DNA of 64,000 bases from Propionicimonas sp. (GTDB lineage: Bacteria > Actinomycetota > Actinomycetes > Propionibacteriales > Propionibacteriaceae): the NCBI GenBank assembly GCA_013791955.1, contig VMSW01000005.1, positions 248,001 to 312,000 of the forward strand, given 5' to 3'. A program made the translations under genes and the position numbers. The first letter of the stretch is position 1, and each line of letters starts with the position of its first letter. Below, one piece after another: positions 43,207 through 52,324 of the stretch. The notes beneath the pieces are model-generated. The model was given only the letters and a program-made list of their open reading frames with translations, did not search any database and was not told the DNA's origin.

Positions 43207-44271
43207 TCAGTGCCCGGTCTTGGGGGCGAAGCGACGGGCGATGAGGCGTCCGATCAGGTTCAGCAACATCACGATGAGGATCAAGGTGAGCGCTCCGGCC
43301 CACGCCCGATCGAGGTAAACCTGCACATCAACCCCTGGGTGTTGGTAGGAGTCGTAGACATACACCGGCAGGGTCATCATCGGGTTGGCGAACAAGTTGT
43401 TGTTCATGCTGGCGGTGAAGCCAGCGGCCACCAGCAGTGGTGCGGTTTCACCGATCACCCGGGCGATCGCCAAGATGACTCCGGAGATGATGCCCGAAAC
43501 CGCAGTCGGTAGCACCACTCTGGTGATGGTCAGCCATTTCGGCACCCCTAGGGCGTAGGACGCCTCCCGCAGCTCGTTGGGCACCAGCCGCAGCAACTCC
43601 TCGCTGGAGCGCACCACCACTGGGATCATGAGCACCGAGAGCGCCACGCTGCCTGAGAGGCCAAAGCCATTGTTCGGGCCAATGATCAGCGTCATCAGGG
43701 CGTAGGCGAACAAGCCCGCCACGATTGAGGGCACGCCGGTCATCACGTCGACGAAGAACGTGATGGCTTTCGCCAGCCGCTTGCCGGCGCCGTACTCGGC
43801 CAAATAGATGGCTGCCAATAGGCCGATCGGCACCGAGATCGCGGCGGCTGCGCCGGTCACGAACAGGGTGCCGGTGATGGCGTGCAGCGCACCGCCGCCG
43901 GGGCCAACGACGTTGCGCATCGACATCGTGAAGTAGTCCACATCGAAGCGGGCCATCCCCTTGCTGATCGCTGACCAAGTGACCGAGCCCAGCGGAATCA
44001 GGGCTAGCGCGAAAGCGCCGACGATCAAGTTGGACGCTCGCCGGTCGGCGGCCTGCCGGGAGCCTTCGACGATGCGGGCGGCCACTTCGATCGCGATCAG
44101 GTAGAGCAGGTAGGCCAGCAACGCGGCCAGGGCCAGATTGCCCCCAGCGAACAGCACCGCCAGCGCGAAGCCGAGCAGGGAAGCCGCCACCAGGAACACC
44201 GGGATGGTGGCCCGCGGCAGCCGACCGGACGTGAGCTGGCCCGGGGCCAGCGCTTGGCTGATTGTGGTCAT
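43207..44271 (-). CDS. pstA: Phosphate ABC transporter permease PstA
   Basis: Inner-membrane permease of 354 aa with an N-terminal extension and six or more helices. The EAA loop is ELLRLVPNELREASYALGVP, followed by KWLTITRVVLPTA. The ATG at 44271 overlaps the pstC stop (TGATG), coupling the two subunits. Confidence 0.95.
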   Translation of the reverse strand: MTTISQALAPGQLTSGRLPRATIPVFLVAASLLGFALAVLFAGGNLALAALLAYLLYLIAIEVAARIVEGSRQAADRRASNLIVGAFALALIPLGSVTWSAISKGMARFDVDYFTMSMRNVVGPGGGALHAITGTLFVTGAAAAISVPIGLLAAIYLAEYGAGKRLAKAITFFVDVMTGVPSIVAGLFAYALMTLIIGPNNGFGLSGSVALSVLMIPVVVRSSEELLRLVPNELREASYALGVPKWLTITRVVLPTAVSGIISGVILAIARVIGETAPLLVAAGFTASMNNNLFANPMMTLPVYVYDSYQHPGVDVQVYLDRAWAGALTLILIVMLLNLIGRLIARRFAPKTGH

Positions 44272-45236
44272 CAGTTGGCTCCGGAGTATTCGGCGCGGCG
44301 GGAGACGATCCACCGGGCGATCATGTTGACCACCAAAGTGATCAGGAACAGCACCAGACCGGCGGCAATCAGCTGGTTGGTCTTCAGCCCGAAGGCCTCA
44401 GGGAAGTTCAAAGCGATGGTGGCGGCGATGGTGTTGGGGTTCTGGCTGGTCAGCACCTCGAAGGAGATGCTGCGGCCACCGGAGAGCACCATGGTCACTG
44501 CCATGGTTTCGCCAAGGGCGCGGCCCAAACCGAGCATCACCGCGGCGATAATGCCGGGACGGGCGAAGGGCAACACGGCCATCCGGATCATCTCCCAGCG
44601 GGTGGCGCCCAGCGCCAGTGCCGCTTCCTCGTGAAGTCGAGGAGCTTGCAGGAACACCTCCCGGCTGAGGCTGGTGATGATCGGCAGCACCATTACCGCG
44701 AGCACCACCGCTGCAGTGAGGATGGTTCGGCCGGTGCCCGAGACCTGCCCGGAGAAGAGTGGGATGAAACCCAGATTGGCATTCAGCCACGAATAGAGGC
44801 CTTTGACCGCGGGTGCAAGGAGTTCGGCACCCCACAGGCCGAAGACCACCGACGGTACGGCGGCCAGCAGATCGATCACATAGCCGAGCGGCTGCGCCAA
44901 CCGTCTGGGCGCGTAGTGGGAGATGAACAGCGCAATGCCGATCGCTACCGGCACGGCCATCGCCAGGGCCAGCGTTGCCGCCCAGACGGTGCCGAAAGCG
45001 TAGGGCAGCACCCACGAGGCGAACTCGCCGTAGCCCTGGGAGATGAGTTTGGCCGGATCGGCGAAGAGCGCCGGTGCGCCCTGGACGAGCAGGAAGGTGG
45101 CCACTGCCGCCAGGATCACCAGGATCATGATCCCCGAGGCCCCAGCTAAGGCGCCGAAGACCTTGTCGCCAACCCGCTTGGGGTCGGCTTTCCCGGCGGA
45201 GGCGCCGCCGATCAAACCGGCCGAAGGGTTAGTCAT
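44271..45236 (-). CDS. pstC: Phosphate ABC transporter permease PstC
   Basis: Permease subunit of 321 aa that pairs with PstA. Six helices are apparent; the EAA loop is LHEEAALALGATRWEMIRMA and AAVPSVVFGLWG is conserved. It follows pstS after a 92-bp gap that holds a strong hairpin. Confidence 0.95.
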   Translation of the reverse strand: MTNPSAGLIGGASAGKADPKRVGDKVFGALAGASGIMILVILAAVATFLLVQGAPALFADPAKLISQGYGEFASWVLPYAFGTVWAATLALAMAVPVAIGIALFISHYAPRRLAQPLGYVIDLLAAVPSVVFGLWGAELLAPAVKGLYSWLNANLGFIPLFSGQVSGTGRTILTAAVVLAVMVLPIITSLSREVFLQAPRLHEEAALALGATRWEMIRMAVLPFARPGIIAAVMLGLGRALGETMAVTMVLSGGRSISFEVLTSQNPNTIAATIALNFPEAFGLKTNQLIAAGLVLFLITLVVNMIARWIVSRRAEYSGAN

Positions 45237-45282
45237 CGGCTGTCCTGCTCTCTAACTGTCACTGGATAAGGCTAAGCGACCC

Positions 45283-45315
45283 GACGGCGCCGAGCGGGAT
45301 CCGCTCGGCGCCGTC
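45283..45315 (-). terminator. 15-bp hairpin between pstS and pstC
   Basis: Arms 45283-45297 and 45301-45315 are perfectly complementary, with a 3-nt loop. Lying inside the operon, it probably causes partial termination or stabilises the pstS 3' end, so that the binding protein is made in excess over the permeases. Confidence 0.8.
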
Positions 45316-45328
45316 ACAACTTAGGGTC

Positions 45329-46390
45329 TCACTTGATCGAATCGACCGCAGTCTTGACCTTGGCCTGCAAAGTGGCCGACAGCGGAGCAGAGCCAGCTGA
45401 AGCGGCCGCAGCCTGCTGGCCGTCAGCGGAGGCGATGTAGCCGACGTAGGACTTCACCAGCTTGGCCACGCTAGCGTCCTTGTAGGTCTCGCAGACGATT
45501 GCATAGGAGACCAGAACGGCCGGGTAGGCGCCGCCAGTGGTGCGATCCAGCTTGTAGGCCAGGTCGTTGGCGGAGCGGCCGGGGACGGTCTTGGAGGCAT
45601 CCAAGATCGCGGCGGCGGCCTCAGCGGTGGGCTTGAGCGGCTTGCCGTTGACCAACAGGTCGGCGATGCCGACGTTCTTGGCGGCCGAGGCGTCGGCGTA
45701 GCCGATGGTGCCGGTGCCGTTGGCGACCGCGCCGACCACGCCGGAGGTGCCGTTGGCAGCCTCGCCACCGAAGGCGGCGGGCCAGGTGTCGGAGGCCGAC
45801 TCGGTCCACACCGACGGGGCCAGCTGGGCCATGGTGTCGGTGAAGTTGTTGGTGGTACCGGAGTCGTCAGCGCGGTGCACCGCGGTGATCGCCAGGTCGG
45901 GCAGCTTGGCCTTCGGGTTGAGCTTGGCGATGGCCGCGTCGTTCCAGTTCTTGATCTTGCCGGTGAAGATGCTGGCCAACGTGGCCTCGTCCAGGGCCAG
46001 GGAATCCACACCGTCGAGCTTGTAGATCACTGCGATCGGCGAGACGTAGATCGGCAGGTTGAGGGCATTGGAGGTGGCAGCGCAGCCGGCAAACTTGCCC
46101 GCGCCCATCTCTTCGTCCTTGAACGCACGGTCGGAGCCAGCGAACTGAGCCGCGCCGGCGATGAACGCCGAGCGACCCGCGCCGGAGCCATCGGGGGCGT
46201 AGTTCACGGTGACGCCAGTGTTGGCGGTCTGGAAGGCGGCAACCCACTTTTCCTGGGCGGCCTTCTGAGAGGAGGCGCCCTTGCCGGTGAGGGTGGTGGT
46301 GGAAGCCCCGCCCTCGTTGGCCGCGCAACCGGCGAATGCCAGAGTGGAGGCCGTCACCAGGGCGGCGGCGCTGATCAGCTTGGTTTTCAC
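45329..46390 (-). CDS. pstS: Phosphate-binding lipoprotein PstS
   Basis: Extracellular phosphate receptor of the Pst system. The 353-aa protein has a lipobox LAFAGC (Cys22), then TLTGKGASSQKAAQEKWVAAF and YAPDGSGAGRSAF, which carry phosphate-binding Ser and Arg residues, and later VHRADDSGTTNNFTDTM. A PHO box sits about 85 bp upstream, so the operon should be induced by phosphate starvation through PhoP/RegX3. Confidence 0.96.
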   Translation of the reverse strand: MKTKLISAAALVTASTLAFAGCAANEGGASTTTLTGKGASSQKAAQEKWVAAFQTANTGVTVNYAPDGSGAGRSAFIAGAAQFAGSDRAFKDEEMGAGKFAGCAATSNALNLPIYVSPIAVIYKLDGVDSLALDEATLASIFTGKIKNWNDAAIAKLNPKAKLPDLAITAVHRADDSGTTNNFTDTMAQLAPSVWTESASDTWPAAFGGEAANGTSGVVGAVANGTGTIGYADASAAKNVGIADLLVNGKPLKPTAEAAAAILDASKTVPGRSANDLAYKLDRTTGGAYPAVLVSYAIVCETYKDASVAKLVKSYVGYIASADGQQAAAASAGSAPLSATLQAKVKTAVDSIK

Positions 46391-47600: not shown

Positions 47601-47660
47601 CAGAGCACTGGCCTTCAGAGCACGGGCCTTCAGAGCACTGGCCTTCAGAGCACTGGCTTG
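47601..47660. repeat. Four tandem 15-bp repeats at a convergent gene junction
   Basis: Copies of CAGAGCACTGGCCTT start at 47601, 47616, 47631 and 47646, the second with one substitution and the last diverging at its end. The last copy encodes the C-terminus of MutT1, whose stop is at 47645-47647. Confidence 0.9.
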
Positions 47661-48532
47661 TGCATCTCCAAAGCCACGACTTTCCCGGACGGGGCGAGGT
47701 GGGCGATCAATGCCGCCGCCGGGGACAGTGAATGCGGCTCGATGCCCACTCCGGCCAGCATCGCCGGCAATACCGGACGGTGGCCGCAGACCACCGTCGG
47801 CACGCCACTGGTGGCGGTCTCGGCGGCCAGTTTGCGTAGCTGCTTGGTGACGGTCTTCGGGTCCGGAACGCCAGCTTCCTCAGTGAACGCGGCGCGCGCG
47901 TCCACCTCCAGCTCATGGGCCTTGGCAAACGGCCGCACCGTTCTGAGGCACCGGGTTGCCGTCGAAGTGACAATCCGTCGCACGCCGTAGGCGTCCAACA
48001 GCGGAATGACCGCCTTACTCTGCAGTTGGCCGCGCGGGTCGAGCCCACGCTCGTGATCGGGGCGACCGCGCCATTCCGATCTCGACAGCGCCTTCGCGTG
48101 CCGCAGGATCACCAGCGGGGTGGTGGCCGGCAGGTTCACCGCCTGGCGGATCACTTCGCGTTCGTCGGCGTAGGAGTCTTGACGCAGGGCGTCCTTCAAC
48201 CGGAACCAGGCGGCCTGATCAACCTCGCTGTTTGGCTTGTGCTTGCGCTCGCCCACCAGGTGGCCCACCCAGTAGGTGACCGCTTTCACCCCGCCGCCCA
48301 CCGGATAGGTGATTTCGGTGATCGGCAGGCCCAAGCGGGTGCTAATCGAAGACTCCTCGTCGGTTTCGCGCACGGCGCAGGCGGCCAGGTACTCCCCGGT
48401 CTCCAACTTGCCTTTGGGCAGCGTCCAGTCGTCGTAGCGGGGCCGGTGCACCAACAGCACCTCTGGGCTGGTAGCGCCGATGCGCAGCGTCACGGTGCCA
48501 GCGGCAACGATCCGTTTGACTAGTTCGGTCAT
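47645..48532 (-). CDS. mutT1: MutT1-type Nudix hydrolase fused to a histidine phosphatase domain
   Basis: A 295-aa two-domain protein. The N-terminal Nudix domain has GKLETGEYLAACAVRETDEE. The C-terminal SixA-like phosphatase has LVILRHAKALSRSEWRG and VVCGHRPVLP. This arrangement matches mycobacterial MutT1, which sanitises 8-oxo-dGTP and hydrolyses dinucleoside polyphosphates. The mycobacterial gene is also next to ppk. The ATG lies 4 nt after the ppk stop, so they are co-translated. Confidence 0.92.
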   Translation of the reverse strand: MTELVKRIVAAGTVTLRIGATSPEVLLVHRPRYDDWTLPKGKLETGEYLAACAVRETDEESSISTRLGLPITEITYPVGGGVKAVTYWVGHLVGERKHKPNSEVDQAAWFRLKDALRQDSYADEREVIRQAVNLPATTPLVILRHAKALSRSEWRGRPDHERGLDPRGQLQSKAVIPLLDAYGVRRIVTSTATRCLRTVRPFAKAHELEVDARAAFTEEAGVPDPKTVTKQLRKLAAETATSGVPTVVCGHRPVLPAMLAGVGIEPHSLSPAAALIAHLAPSGKVVALEMHKPVL

Positions 48533-48536
48533 GGCT

Positions 48537-51509
48537 TCAGCGCTCTAGGGCGCGACGCTGGCCCATCTGGGAGATCATGTGCTCCTGCATATCGAGCAGT
48601 GGCTCGCCTTCGGCGTTGGTGGTGTGCTGACGCCAGTCTTCGCCGTCCAGCCACCAGGCGGCCGTGCCCTCGTCGAAGGCCTGGTCGAAGAGCTGCTCGA
48701 TCTGGGCAATGTGGGCTGGATTGGCCAGGCCGACGATCACCTCGACCCGGCGATCGAGGTTGCGGTGCATCAGGTCTGCCGACCCGATGCCGACCTGGGG
48801 ATGACCCCCGTTGGCGAACCAGAACAGCCGACTGTGCTCGAGAAAGCGACCCAGGATGCTGCGCACCCGAATGTTGTCGCTCACCCCGGGAATCCCGGGA
48901 CGGACCGCGCAGATGCCACGCACCCAGAGGTCAACCGGCACGCCCGCCTGGGAGGCCCGGTAAAGGGCATCGGTGATGGTCTCATCGACGATCGAGTTCA
49001 ACTTGAGTCGGATGCCGGCGGGCAACCCGGCCCGGTGGTTGTTGATCTCCCGGTTGATCGCCGAGATCAGGCCCTTGCGCACTGAGTGCGGTGCCACCAG
49101 CAGCCGACGGTAGCTCGTCTCCTGCGACATGCCGGAGAGATGGTTGAACAGCTTGGCGACGTCCTCGGTGATCACCGCGTTGGAGGTGAGTAGGCCCATG
49201 TCTTCGTAGAGCCGGGCGGTCTTGGGGTTGTAGTTGCCGGTGCCGATGTGGCAGTAGCGACGCAGTCCGGCTGGCTCCTCGCGCACGACCAGCGACAGCT
49301 TGCAGTGGGTCTTCAGGCCCAGCACCCCGTAGACAACATGGCAGCCAGCCTTCTCCAGCTTGCGGGCCCAGGCGATGTTGGCCTGCTCGTCAAAGCGGGC
49401 CTTGATCTCGACCAGCGCCAACACCTGCTTGCCGGCCCGGGCAGCCTCGATCAGGGCATCGATGATCGGGGAATCGCCGGAGGTGCGATACAGGGTTTGC
49501 TTGATCGCCAGCACAGCCGGATCAGCGGCGGCCTGCTCGATGAACCGCTGCACGCTGGTGGCAAAGGAGTCATAGGGATGCTGCAGCAACACATCGCGGC
49601 TCTTCAGCGCCGCGAACATATCGGCCGGCTGGGCGGTCTCCACCTTGGCCAGCTCGGGGTGGGTCTTGGGCAGGAAGGAGGGGTACTTCAGCGAATCGCG
49701 GTTCAGGTCGGCCAGGGAGAACAGGCCGCGCAGGTCGAGCGGACGGGGCAGCTTGAACACTTCACCCTCGTCGATATCGAGCTCGCTGATGAGCAGCTCC
49801 AACATGCCTTCGTTGATATCGGCCTCGACCTCGAGCCGCACTGGCGGGCGTCCGGTCTTGCGACGAAGCAGCTCCTTCTCCAGGGCGAACAGCAGGTTTT
49901 CGGCGTCGTCCTCTTCAACTTCGACATCTTCGTTGCGGGTGACCCGGAAGGTGCTGTGCGCCACGATCTCCATGCCGGAGAACAGCTGGCCCAGATGTGG
50001 GGCGATCACTTCTTCCAGCGGGATGAACCGGTCATTGCCCAGCGAAACGAAGCGGCTCAGGATGGTGGGCACCTTCACCCGGGCGAACTGGCGCACGCCG
50101 GTGGTGGGATTCATCACCAGCACCGCCAGGTTCACACTCAGCCCGGAAATGTAGGGGAACGGGTGGGACGGGTCGACGGCCAGCGGGGTGAGGACGGGGA
50201 AGATCCGGTTCTCGAACAACGCGGTCATCTTCTGGCGTTCTTCGTCGTTGAGTTCGGTCCAAGCCAGAATCTGGATGCCGTTTGCGGCCAGTTCGGGCCG
50301 GATCTCGTCGGCGAATACTCGCGTGACCTCGTTCACCAGGTCGCGGGTGCGGTCGAGGATGGTTTCCATCAGAGCGCCGGGCATCATGCCGGAGTTGGAC
50401 GGCACAGCCACCCCGGCGGCAATCCGGCGCTTCAGGCCGGCCACCCGCACCATGAAGAACTCGTCGAGGTTGCCGGAGAAGATGGCCAGGAACCGAGCTC
50501 GTTCCAGTAGCGGCACCCGCTTGGAGTCGCGGGCCAGATCGAGCACTCGCTCGTTGAAGGCCAGCCAGCTGAGTTCGCGGTCGTTGTAGCGGTCGGCAGG
50601 AAGATCAGGCAGGCCCTCAGCGTGTTCGTCAAGGTCGACGTGGCCGTCGGTGAACGTCATTGACTGCTCCTGCTGCATCGATTCGTAGAAGACGTCGCGG
50701 TGTGCCTCGATGAACCCCGCGCGCTCATACATTCTTATCGCGATCTCGTCTGCGCTGTCGACGTAGAGCTCAACGGTGGGCAAACCCTTGGCGGCAAGGT
50801 GAGACATGCCAGCCTCCAGCAGCGCTTTGCCGTAGCCGCGTCCCTGCGCTCGCGGTGCCACGGCGACCACGTACACCTCGCCGCTGTTGGCGGCAGTCTT
50901 GGTCCAGTGAAAGCCAGCCAGGCCGTCAGCATCGAAGCCGAGGATCAGCCCGTTCGGATCGAACCAGTCCTCGGCCATCCGGGTGGCCAGGCCGGCTGCG
51001 TCCAGGGACCCCTGTTCGTGGTGGTGGGCGAAAGCGGCGGCGTTGACGGCCAGCAACTCGGCGGCATCGGTTGGTCGATAGCCGCGCAGGCTCAATCCGT
51101 CGGCTTCGGTGGCCTCAGGTAGCCCGGCCAGCGGACGCGACATCACCAGCAGGCTACGAGCGGGCCGCAAGCCGAGGCTGGTGGCAAAGCCGCGGGCCGG
51201 TTCGAGATCGCCGAAGGCCCAGATGCCGACCTTCTCGGGGTCGGGAAGCTCACGCCAGAGTTTGGTGCCCACTCCACGGCGGCGCCACCCGGGATCGACC
51301 ACGAGTTGCACTGTGGCCAGGGCCGGTTGCCAGTTCAGGTAGCCGATCAGTTCGGTGCCTTCGCTGACCAGGACGTGCCGGGAGTTGGCGTCGGCCAGTG
51401 AAAACTGGGCTACCTCATTGAGGGGAACCACCCCGTCGAAGTCGGCGGCCCGGCCGCCCAGTGCGCGCACAGCGGCTGCTTGGTCTGAGGTGAGTTGGTG
51501 GGTCCACAC
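48537..51509 (-). CDS. Fusion of mycothiol synthase (MshD) and polyphosphate kinase (PPK1)
   Basis: One uninterrupted 990-aa frame. Residues 1 to about 283 are a tandem-GNAT mycothiol synthase, with acetyl-CoA loops [14 protein letters not shown] and [24 protein letters not shown] and a normal MshD end [17 protein letters not shown]. From about residue 284 (ATG at 50660) begins a full-length PPK1 of about 707 aa ([18 protein letters not shown]; autophosphorylation His in [39 protein letters not shown]). MshD acetylates the cysteinyl intermediate of mycothiol; PPK makes polyphosphate from ATP. No stop separates them. GTG 51509 is supported by a TAGCCT hexamer. Upstream is a GlnR-like gene, as next to mshD in mycobacteria. 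Confidence 0.9.
50658..50671 (-). promoter_or_regulatory. Internal ribosome binding site and start for stand-alone PPK
   Basis: Minus strand AGGAG (50671-50667), then 6 nt, then ATG (50660-50658), at the exact point where the PPK1 homology begins. It would allow translation of a separate 707-aa PPK from the fusion mRNA. Confidence 0.65.
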
Positions 51510-51516
51510 CCTGGCA

Positions 51517-51522
51517 AGGCTA
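51517..51522 (-). promoter_or_regulatory. -10 element of a leaderless promoter (mshD-ppk)
   Basis: Minus strand TAGCCT, then TGCCAGG (7 nt), then GTG ending at 51509. Confidence 0.6.
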
Positions 51523-51563
51523 CGGCCAACGGAGGCCTTCGGCACCCGGATCGGGCGTGCGGA

Positions 51564-52241
51564 TTAGCGGCGGCCGGAGCCGTCCGGGGAGAAGCGGTAA
51601 CCGACGTTGCGGACGGTGCCAATGAGGGCTTCGTGTTCGGGGCCGAGCTTGGCGCGCAATCGGCGGACGTGGACGTCCACGGTGCGGGTACCGCCGTAGT
51701 AGTCGTAGCCCCAAACGTCGGCCAGCAAATGCTCCCGGCTGAAGACCCGGCCGGGATGCTGCACGAGGTACTTCAGCAACTCGAACTCGGTGTAGGTCAG
51801 ATCGAGGGCCTCGCCGTCCAACACCACCGAGTAGGCGGCGTCGTCGATCACGATGCCGCCAGCCGAGATCAGACCGTCGTTGGCAGCCGAGGTGGCCAGC
51901 AGGCGGATGCGCGCTTCAAACTCGGCCGGACCAGCGGTGTCGAGCAGCAGATCGGAAAGGCCCCAGTCGGCGGCTACCGCCGCCAGCCCGGATTCGGTGA
52001 GCACCAGCAGCAGCGGAACTGTCGATCCGGAGGACTGGAAGAGCCGGGCCATCATCCGGGCGCCAGCCAGGTCAGCGCGTCCGTCCAGCACCACGACATC
52101 GCAGCGAGCCGACTCGGTCAGCGCCTGGGTGTCGGCAGCGACGCCATGAATTGAGTGCGATAGGAGGGCCAAAACGGGCAGCGAGCGCTCCGCGGGCACG
52201 CCATTGGCGACCTCGTTGCTGACCAGCAACAGTTGCGCCAT
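51564..52241 (-). CDS. glnR: GlnR-like OmpR-family regulator
   Basis: A 225-aa orphan response-regulator-like protein with no kinase nearby. The receiver part is divergent: the central Asp is in CDVVVLDGRADL, but the N-terminal acidic pair is missing (AQLLLVSNEV), as in GlnR. The winged helix is LTYTEFELLKYLVQHPGRVF, then TRTVDVHVRRLRAKLG. GlnR controls nitrogen metabolism in actinobacteria, and its gene is adjacent to mshD in mycobacteria. The ATG follows AGGAGGGG. Confidence 0.85.
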   Translation of the reverse strand: MAQLLLVSNEVANGVPAERSLPVLALLSHSIHGVAADTQALTESARCDVVVLDGRADLAGARMMARLFQSSGSTVPLLLVLTESGLAAVAADWGLSDLLLDTAGPAEFEARIRLLATSAANDGLISAGGIVIDDAAYSVVLDGEALDLTYTEFELLKYLVQHPGRVFSREHLLADVWGYDYYGGTRTVDVHVRRLRAKLGPEHEALIGTVRNVGYRFSPDGSGRR

Positions 52242-52324
52242 CACCCCTCCTAAGGCCACCGTACGGGGCAAACTCTAGTGACCCCGCCGCGTTTTGCTGT
52301 ACTTAGGTCCACGGATGGGGCAGT

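Follow-up and report, generated by a model that had tools for sequence, protein, structure and literature searches.

In-frame joining of the mycothiol synthase and polyphosphate kinase genes has apparently occurred repeatedly in Propionibacteriaceae

The genes for mycothiol synthase (MshD) and polyphosphate kinase (PPK1) of Propionicimonas sp. are joined in a single reading frame, described here from the window, the stretch of 64,000 nucleotides that was analyzed (Table 1). Comparison of the locus across the family suggests about five or six separate origins of such fusions. We consider it reasonably probable, as a whole, that recurrent fusion of this gene pair gives rise to a bifunctional MshD-PPK1 chain and that some free PPK1 is produced alongside it.

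Table 1. Features of the mshD-ppk1 region, in coordinates of the window
Feature	Coordinates	Strand	Basis or remark
MshD-PPK1 fusion ORF, 1002 aa, ~110.8 kDa	48537..51545, including stop	minus	no in-frame stop
MshD, mycothiol synthase, two GNAT domains, aa 14-287	50685..51506	minus	TIGR03448
Linker, aa 288-322, ~35 residues	50580..50684	minus	low model confidence at 284-307
PPK1, aa 318-998, His747 (GLKTHCK) and His904 (RFLEHSR)	48552..50594	minus	profiles, Pfam
AGGAG, Shine-Dalgarno-like, 6 nt 5' of internal ATG	50667..50671	minus	sequence
Internal ATG, codon 296, presumed start of free PPK1 (707 aa, ~79.1 kDa)	50658..50660	minus	putative use
TGA of ATGA overlap, out of frame in the window; mshD stop in many separate congeners	50657..50659	minus
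MutT1-like Nudix hydrolase	47645..48532	minus	4 nt past ppk stop; NF052459 189.4 bits, cut-off 475
GlnR-like transcription factor, immediately upstream of mshD	51564..52271	minus	Pfam PF21695 and PF00486

The start of the ORF may be the GTG at 51545 or a later in-frame GTG at 51509. The preliminary description had reported a single frame of 990 codons with no stop between the two genes, which is the length counted from 51509; the open frame is real, and its extent to the GTG at 51545 is 1002 codons. The MshD part matches the TIGR03448 profile over its full length (profile positions 2-294 of 294) with a score of 257.5 bits against a cut-off of 163.1, and aligns with the Mycobacterium tuberculosis MshD structures 1ozp/2c27. 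Residues E225 (the Glu of GEVYV) and Y273 (the Tyr of RMY), which we take to be catalytic, align with the same structures. In its full-length match over the cut-off and its possession of this Glu and Tyr, the MshD part is like the known enzyme (TIGR03448; M. tuberculosis Rv0819, PDB 1ozp, 1p0h, and 2c27), but it has no stop codon at its end and continues into PPK1.

The PPK1 part scores 1171.4 bits with profile NF003922 (cut-off 981) over aa 302-998, is matched by TIGR03705 over aa 319-990 of the fusion, and contains the Pfam domains PP_kinase_N, middle, C_1, and C in order (PF13089, PF02503, PF17941, PF13090). His747 and His904 align with Escherichia coli PPK1, where their counterparts are presumably the catalytic residues His435 and His592, and both are invariant across the 19 rows of the alignment. 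With all four domains and both histidines, this part is like known PPK1 enzymes (NF003922, TIGR03705; E. coli PDB 1xdo and 1xdp), from which it differs in carrying a complete second enzyme at its N terminus. The profile alignments agree with the earlier statements that MshD homology ends normally and that PPK1 begins at an ATG.

A search of the window genome found no other copy of mshD or ppk1, returning only two weak GNAT matches, and the mshC gene of this genome scores over its cut-off. Between the window genome (G000) and the genome UBA6122 (G158), dN/dS is 0.20 for MshD (dS 0.231) and 0.011 for PPK (dS 0.183), and purifying selection acts on both halves. Because both halves are constrained in this way and are the sole copies found, both activities should come from the fusion gene. 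Over aa 288-318 the same two genomes differ by three synonymous changes and one other; dN/dS for the linker is 0.08, from few sites.

The gene 3' of ppk resembles mycobacterial MutT1 in having a Nudix domain and a partial histidine phosphatase domain, at a score far under the curated cut-off, and it likely shares an operon with the mshD-ppk frame. Farther downstream on the minus strand (44271-46390) lie pstC, identified by profile, and a PstS-like gene, named by reading. This nitrogen and phosphate neighborhood of GlnR-like, pstC, and PstS-like genes recurs in several relatives.

On the minus strand the junction reads TTC TAC GAA TCG ATG CAG CAG GAG CAG TCA ATG ACG. Taking AGGAG, GGAGG, or GAGGT as a Shine-Dalgarno 5-mer, such a motif lies 4-9 nt 5' of three of the 73 in-frame ATG, GTG, or TTG codons from codon 11 on, and the ATG at 50660 is among the three. 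Of the 24 congeners with separate genes, 18 have a candidate ppk start that shares 1 or 4 nt with the mshD stop (CAGCCATGA and CAGTGATG are examples). Compared with L024, L025, L047, L005, and L006, the window carries one additional base between GAGCAG and ATG (CAGTCAATGA). At the L024 junction (CAG GAG CAG CCATGACC) and the L005 junction (GAG GAG CAG TGATGG) the mshD TGA overlaps the ppk ATG; the L018 and L041 junctions differ, the mshD stop being a TAG just 5' of the ATG. Because of the extra base before the ATG, mshD is read on in the frame of ppk and the TGA falls out of frame. Judged from these junctions, with the direction of change taken from parsimony, the fusion arose by a frame shift. 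Loss of a stop codon, the cause put forward in the preliminary description, is not supported: a TGA persists in the other frame, and comparison with congeners reveals a one-base shift instead. The same account had two neighboring genes joined in frame with the ribosome binding site of the second retained, and both of these points are supported. The earlier account is thus partly supported: its outline is correct, and the mutation it names is not.

UBA6122 has an identical junction, and its protein is 97% identical to the window fusion. The fusion is therefore not limited to the window assembly, a case that the preliminary description had raised against its own reading. Loci L004 and L033 are identical over the ORF. 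Among the 30 genomes of the genus classified by a junction script, two are fused, 24 are separate, and four have no mshD match adjoining ppk in the piece examined. In the trees, the nearest congeners (G050, G171, and G066) all have separate genes. One of the 24 separate genomes, G146, also has a second glnR-mshD-ppk locus at the end of contig C16 (L278 2338-3891); there the MshD frame continues into PPK as far as the end of the contig, which falls at PPK residue 133 of the query. This copy retains the 2-nt spacer that follows GAGCAG, its AGGAG is 5 nt from the ATG, and the frame has shifted at a point farther upstream, indicating an event different from that in the window. A tree of 78 rows groups the copy near G181, away from the window. 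Another strain within the assembly may be its source, since it ends at a contig end and a separate pair is present on another contig.

The wider family was searched with the TIGR03448 profile; 161 of 197 genomes gave a match. Among the matches listed, at least 10 genomes have MshD in a frame of at least 900 aa, and PPK1 lies in the same frame in all 10 (G000 and G158; G005, G029, and G015; G012 and G026, the latter Propionimicrobium lymphophilum DSM 4903; G058; G115 and G136). The case of G058 (Micropruina SSC1) is weak, as there are N bases in the gene, one of them in the linker. Three fusions were re-scanned, and all three have curated-profile matches for both MshD and PPK1. With the G146 copy that ends at a contig end, the family has at least 11 MshD-PPK1 fusions. 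A classification of 159 family genomes, which did not include G115 and G136, gave 122 separate pairs, nine flagged as fused, and 28 without an mshD match next to ppk; one of the nine, G064, was dropped afterwards (L046 6001-8940, L131), because its MshD frame meets an N and continues in a different one, a false fusion; L046 had elsewhere been classed as separate. In 74 of the 122 separate pairs, the mshD stop and a candidate ppk start have 1 or 4 nt in common. In a scan of named genomes, which kept 80 of the 290 relatives found, three were fused after removal of L046.

Trees were built from MshD and the first 185 residues of the PPK core, leaving out 10 of 159 loci in which the PPK motif was unmatched. 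The FastTree tree of 149 rows requires five changes of state, four of them forced by starred branches. A tree of 64 chosen rows that includes all ten fused genes also requires five, all forced, and the 78-row tree with the G146 copy requires six, four forced. Most mshD/ppk pairs are separate, so gains of the fusion are the simple reading, and these trees point to about five or six such gains. The G146 copy adds to the recurrence, and the smaller number of forced changes in the 78-row tree takes some of it away. In two clades the fused state persists across two genera each; together with the number of apparent origins, this suggests that the fused state is tolerated for long periods.

Outside the family, no MshD-PPK fusion was found among the long frames checked from the matches listed for 391 genomes of the order and 394 of the class. 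In the order there are at least seven MshD frames of at least 900 aa; all six that were fetched stop within ~17 codons past the MshD homology, and in the seventh (G246) the contig ends 5 bases past it. A further genome from the class search, G431, was examined and is unfused.

Other variants of the two genes were seen in the family. In G115 and G136, MshD, a low-complexity spacer of 836-956 residues, and PPK1 share one frame, giving proteins of 1941 and 1855 aa. In the members examined of genus g21 (L262 842-6667 minus, L263 737-6304 minus, and L264-L267), PPK1 bears an N-terminal extension of low complexity that is very long (hundreds of residues) and rich in P, T, S, A, and D. Three further genera include genomes with a PPK1 match and no MshD match at E 1e-20 among the matches listed: G003, G027, G047, G063, and G077 (g4); G013, G035, G053, G069, and G083 (g13); and G007, G031, G049, G065, and G079 (g8). 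Mycothiol synthase may have been lost in those genomes.

The fused genes differ in whether they retain a candidate internal start. Six of the ten complete fusions (G000, G158, G029, G015, G012, and G058) have, within the linker, an in-frame start with a Shine-Dalgarno 5-mer 4-9 nt 5' of it; with the truncated G146 copy the figure is seven of 11. No such start lies in the linkers of the other four (G026, G005, G115, and G136), and internal initiation is therefore not a general feature. In the eight ORFs with short linkers, the motif precedes six of 15 linker start codons and seven of the 513 remaining ones, although related genomes are not independent. The motif and the in-frame ATG of the window are identical in G000 and G158. 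They lie within an identical run of 112 nt, the third longest such run. Synonymous change is absent from the 30-codon windows 266-295, 271-300, and 276-305, a level as low as which is found in 4% of all windows, and windows from codon 281 on are ordinary. The absence of synonymous change and the identical run fit a retained start site and are not strong alone; with the two genomes only ~3% apart in protein, the motif and ATG could be relics.

The linker of G005, a genome in one contig scored 100% complete, is 73 codons long and contains no ATG, GTG, or TTG, and no Shine-Dalgarno-preceded start was found in the last 60 MshD codons. From this sequence PPK1 in G005 seems to be made only as the fusion. 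The linkers of the G005/G029/G015 clade differ by indels yet stay in frame, and their GC content is 0.90-0.97 at third codon positions versus 0.59-0.65 at second positions, so that they look coding. An AlphaFold2 model was calculated from an alignment of 19 rows without MshD-only rows, with a depth of three rows over MshD. Its mean pLDDT is 66.5, with low confidence at the linker (284-307) and over much of MshD. The model agrees with a flexible linker and says little on contact between the domains.

These observations suggest the following course of events. In the family mshD and ppk1 are a tightly packed gene pair, with stop and start overlapping in the majority of separate pairs examined. 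A single base would have been gained between the Shine-Dalgarno motif and the ATG in the ancestor that UBA6122 shares with the window genome, as judged by comparison and parsimony. Ribosomes finishing mshD would then continue into ppk1, and the main product would be a bifunctional chain of ~111 kDa in which the MshD acetyltransferase is tethered by ~35 flexible residues to the N-terminal tail of PPK1, which varies among relatives. As the ppk1 Shine-Dalgarno motif and ATG are kept, some free PPK1 of ~79 kDa is probably also made from the retained internal start.

Two alternatives deny that such a chain exists. The fused and overlapping states differ by a single base, so that a sequencing or assembly error at the junction could in principle create the fusion. 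The same junction is present, however, in the assembly of a second, different genome whose protein is 97% identical, so it did not arise in assembly. Further fusions are found in one-contig genomes (G005 and G012) and in P. lymphophilum DSM 4903. We therefore reject an error of this kind, which is very improbable. The long frame might otherwise be an illusion of annotation produced by high GC content, with MshD ended by other means and PPK always made from the ATG. High GC content and the strong Shine-Dalgarno motif and ATG speak for this view, which is nevertheless hard to sustain and which we regard as improbable. Nothing known would halt a ribosome on mshD, there being no in-frame stop; the linkers of one clade have a bias by codon position; the linker is conserved in dN/dS, albeit over few sites; and the G005 linker offers no start codon at all.

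Granted a bifunctional chain, the question is whether the joining is an adaptation or is tolerated, and here the neutral reading is somewhat ahead. On that reading, to which we give an even chance, a one-base indel at an overlapping stop and start fuses the frames, the enzymes work independently on one chain without gain, and recurrence reflects only an easily fused junction and a tolerant PPK1 N-terminal tail. The frequent overlap across the family, the varying length of the PPK N-terminal tail (hundreds of residues in g21), and the fusion by a second, different indel in the same genus (G146) are as expected of it. Less expected are the retention of the fusion across two genera in two clades, the linkers of one clade that stayed in frame through indels, and the apparent dependence of G005 on the fused form, although none of these shows an advantage of coupling. 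Selection for a bifunctional enzyme is the other possibility: the tether would be functional, for example by placing MshD at polyphosphate granules or by fixing the ratio of thiol to polyphosphate capacity under stress. The apparent number of origins, their long persistence, and the seemingly obligate fusion in G005 favor it. On the other hand, we know of no substrate link between the MshD and PPK1 reactions and of no reaction that they share, and with at least 10 complete fusions in 197 family genomes, most of the 161 that have MshD manage without. We consider this reading doubtful. Its fullest form, likewise held only tentatively, is a repeatedly evolved enzyme whose selected tether couples mycothiol and polyphosphate synthesis in space or amount, and which is the sole form of PPK1 in some lineages (G005, perhaps G115 and G136).

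No paper describing an MshD-PPK1 fusion was found by title or listing in the searches made of the open-access PMC literature, and no direct link between mycothiol and polyphosphate enzymes turned up there; in the part of PMC11060752 considered here, mycothiol is mentioned in a reference title only. The locus is like the operon fusions and coupled pairs in the part of the GeneTack survey considered here (PMC3711429) in having a start-stop overlap in relatives, a frame transition by indel, and fused homologues in some genomes. It differs from such pairs in that MshD and PPK1 are not known to share a reaction, that several separate fusions occur within one family, and that some of these keep an internal start. 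About five or six fusions in one family, with or without an internal start, would form a natural series leading from an operon overlap to a bifunctional enzyme. Mycothiol is a protective thiol, and like polyphosphate it serves actinobacteria as a protection against stress. The recurrence of the fusion makes a physical link between thiol and polyphosphate metabolism more worth testing, and the fused pair offers a direct test.
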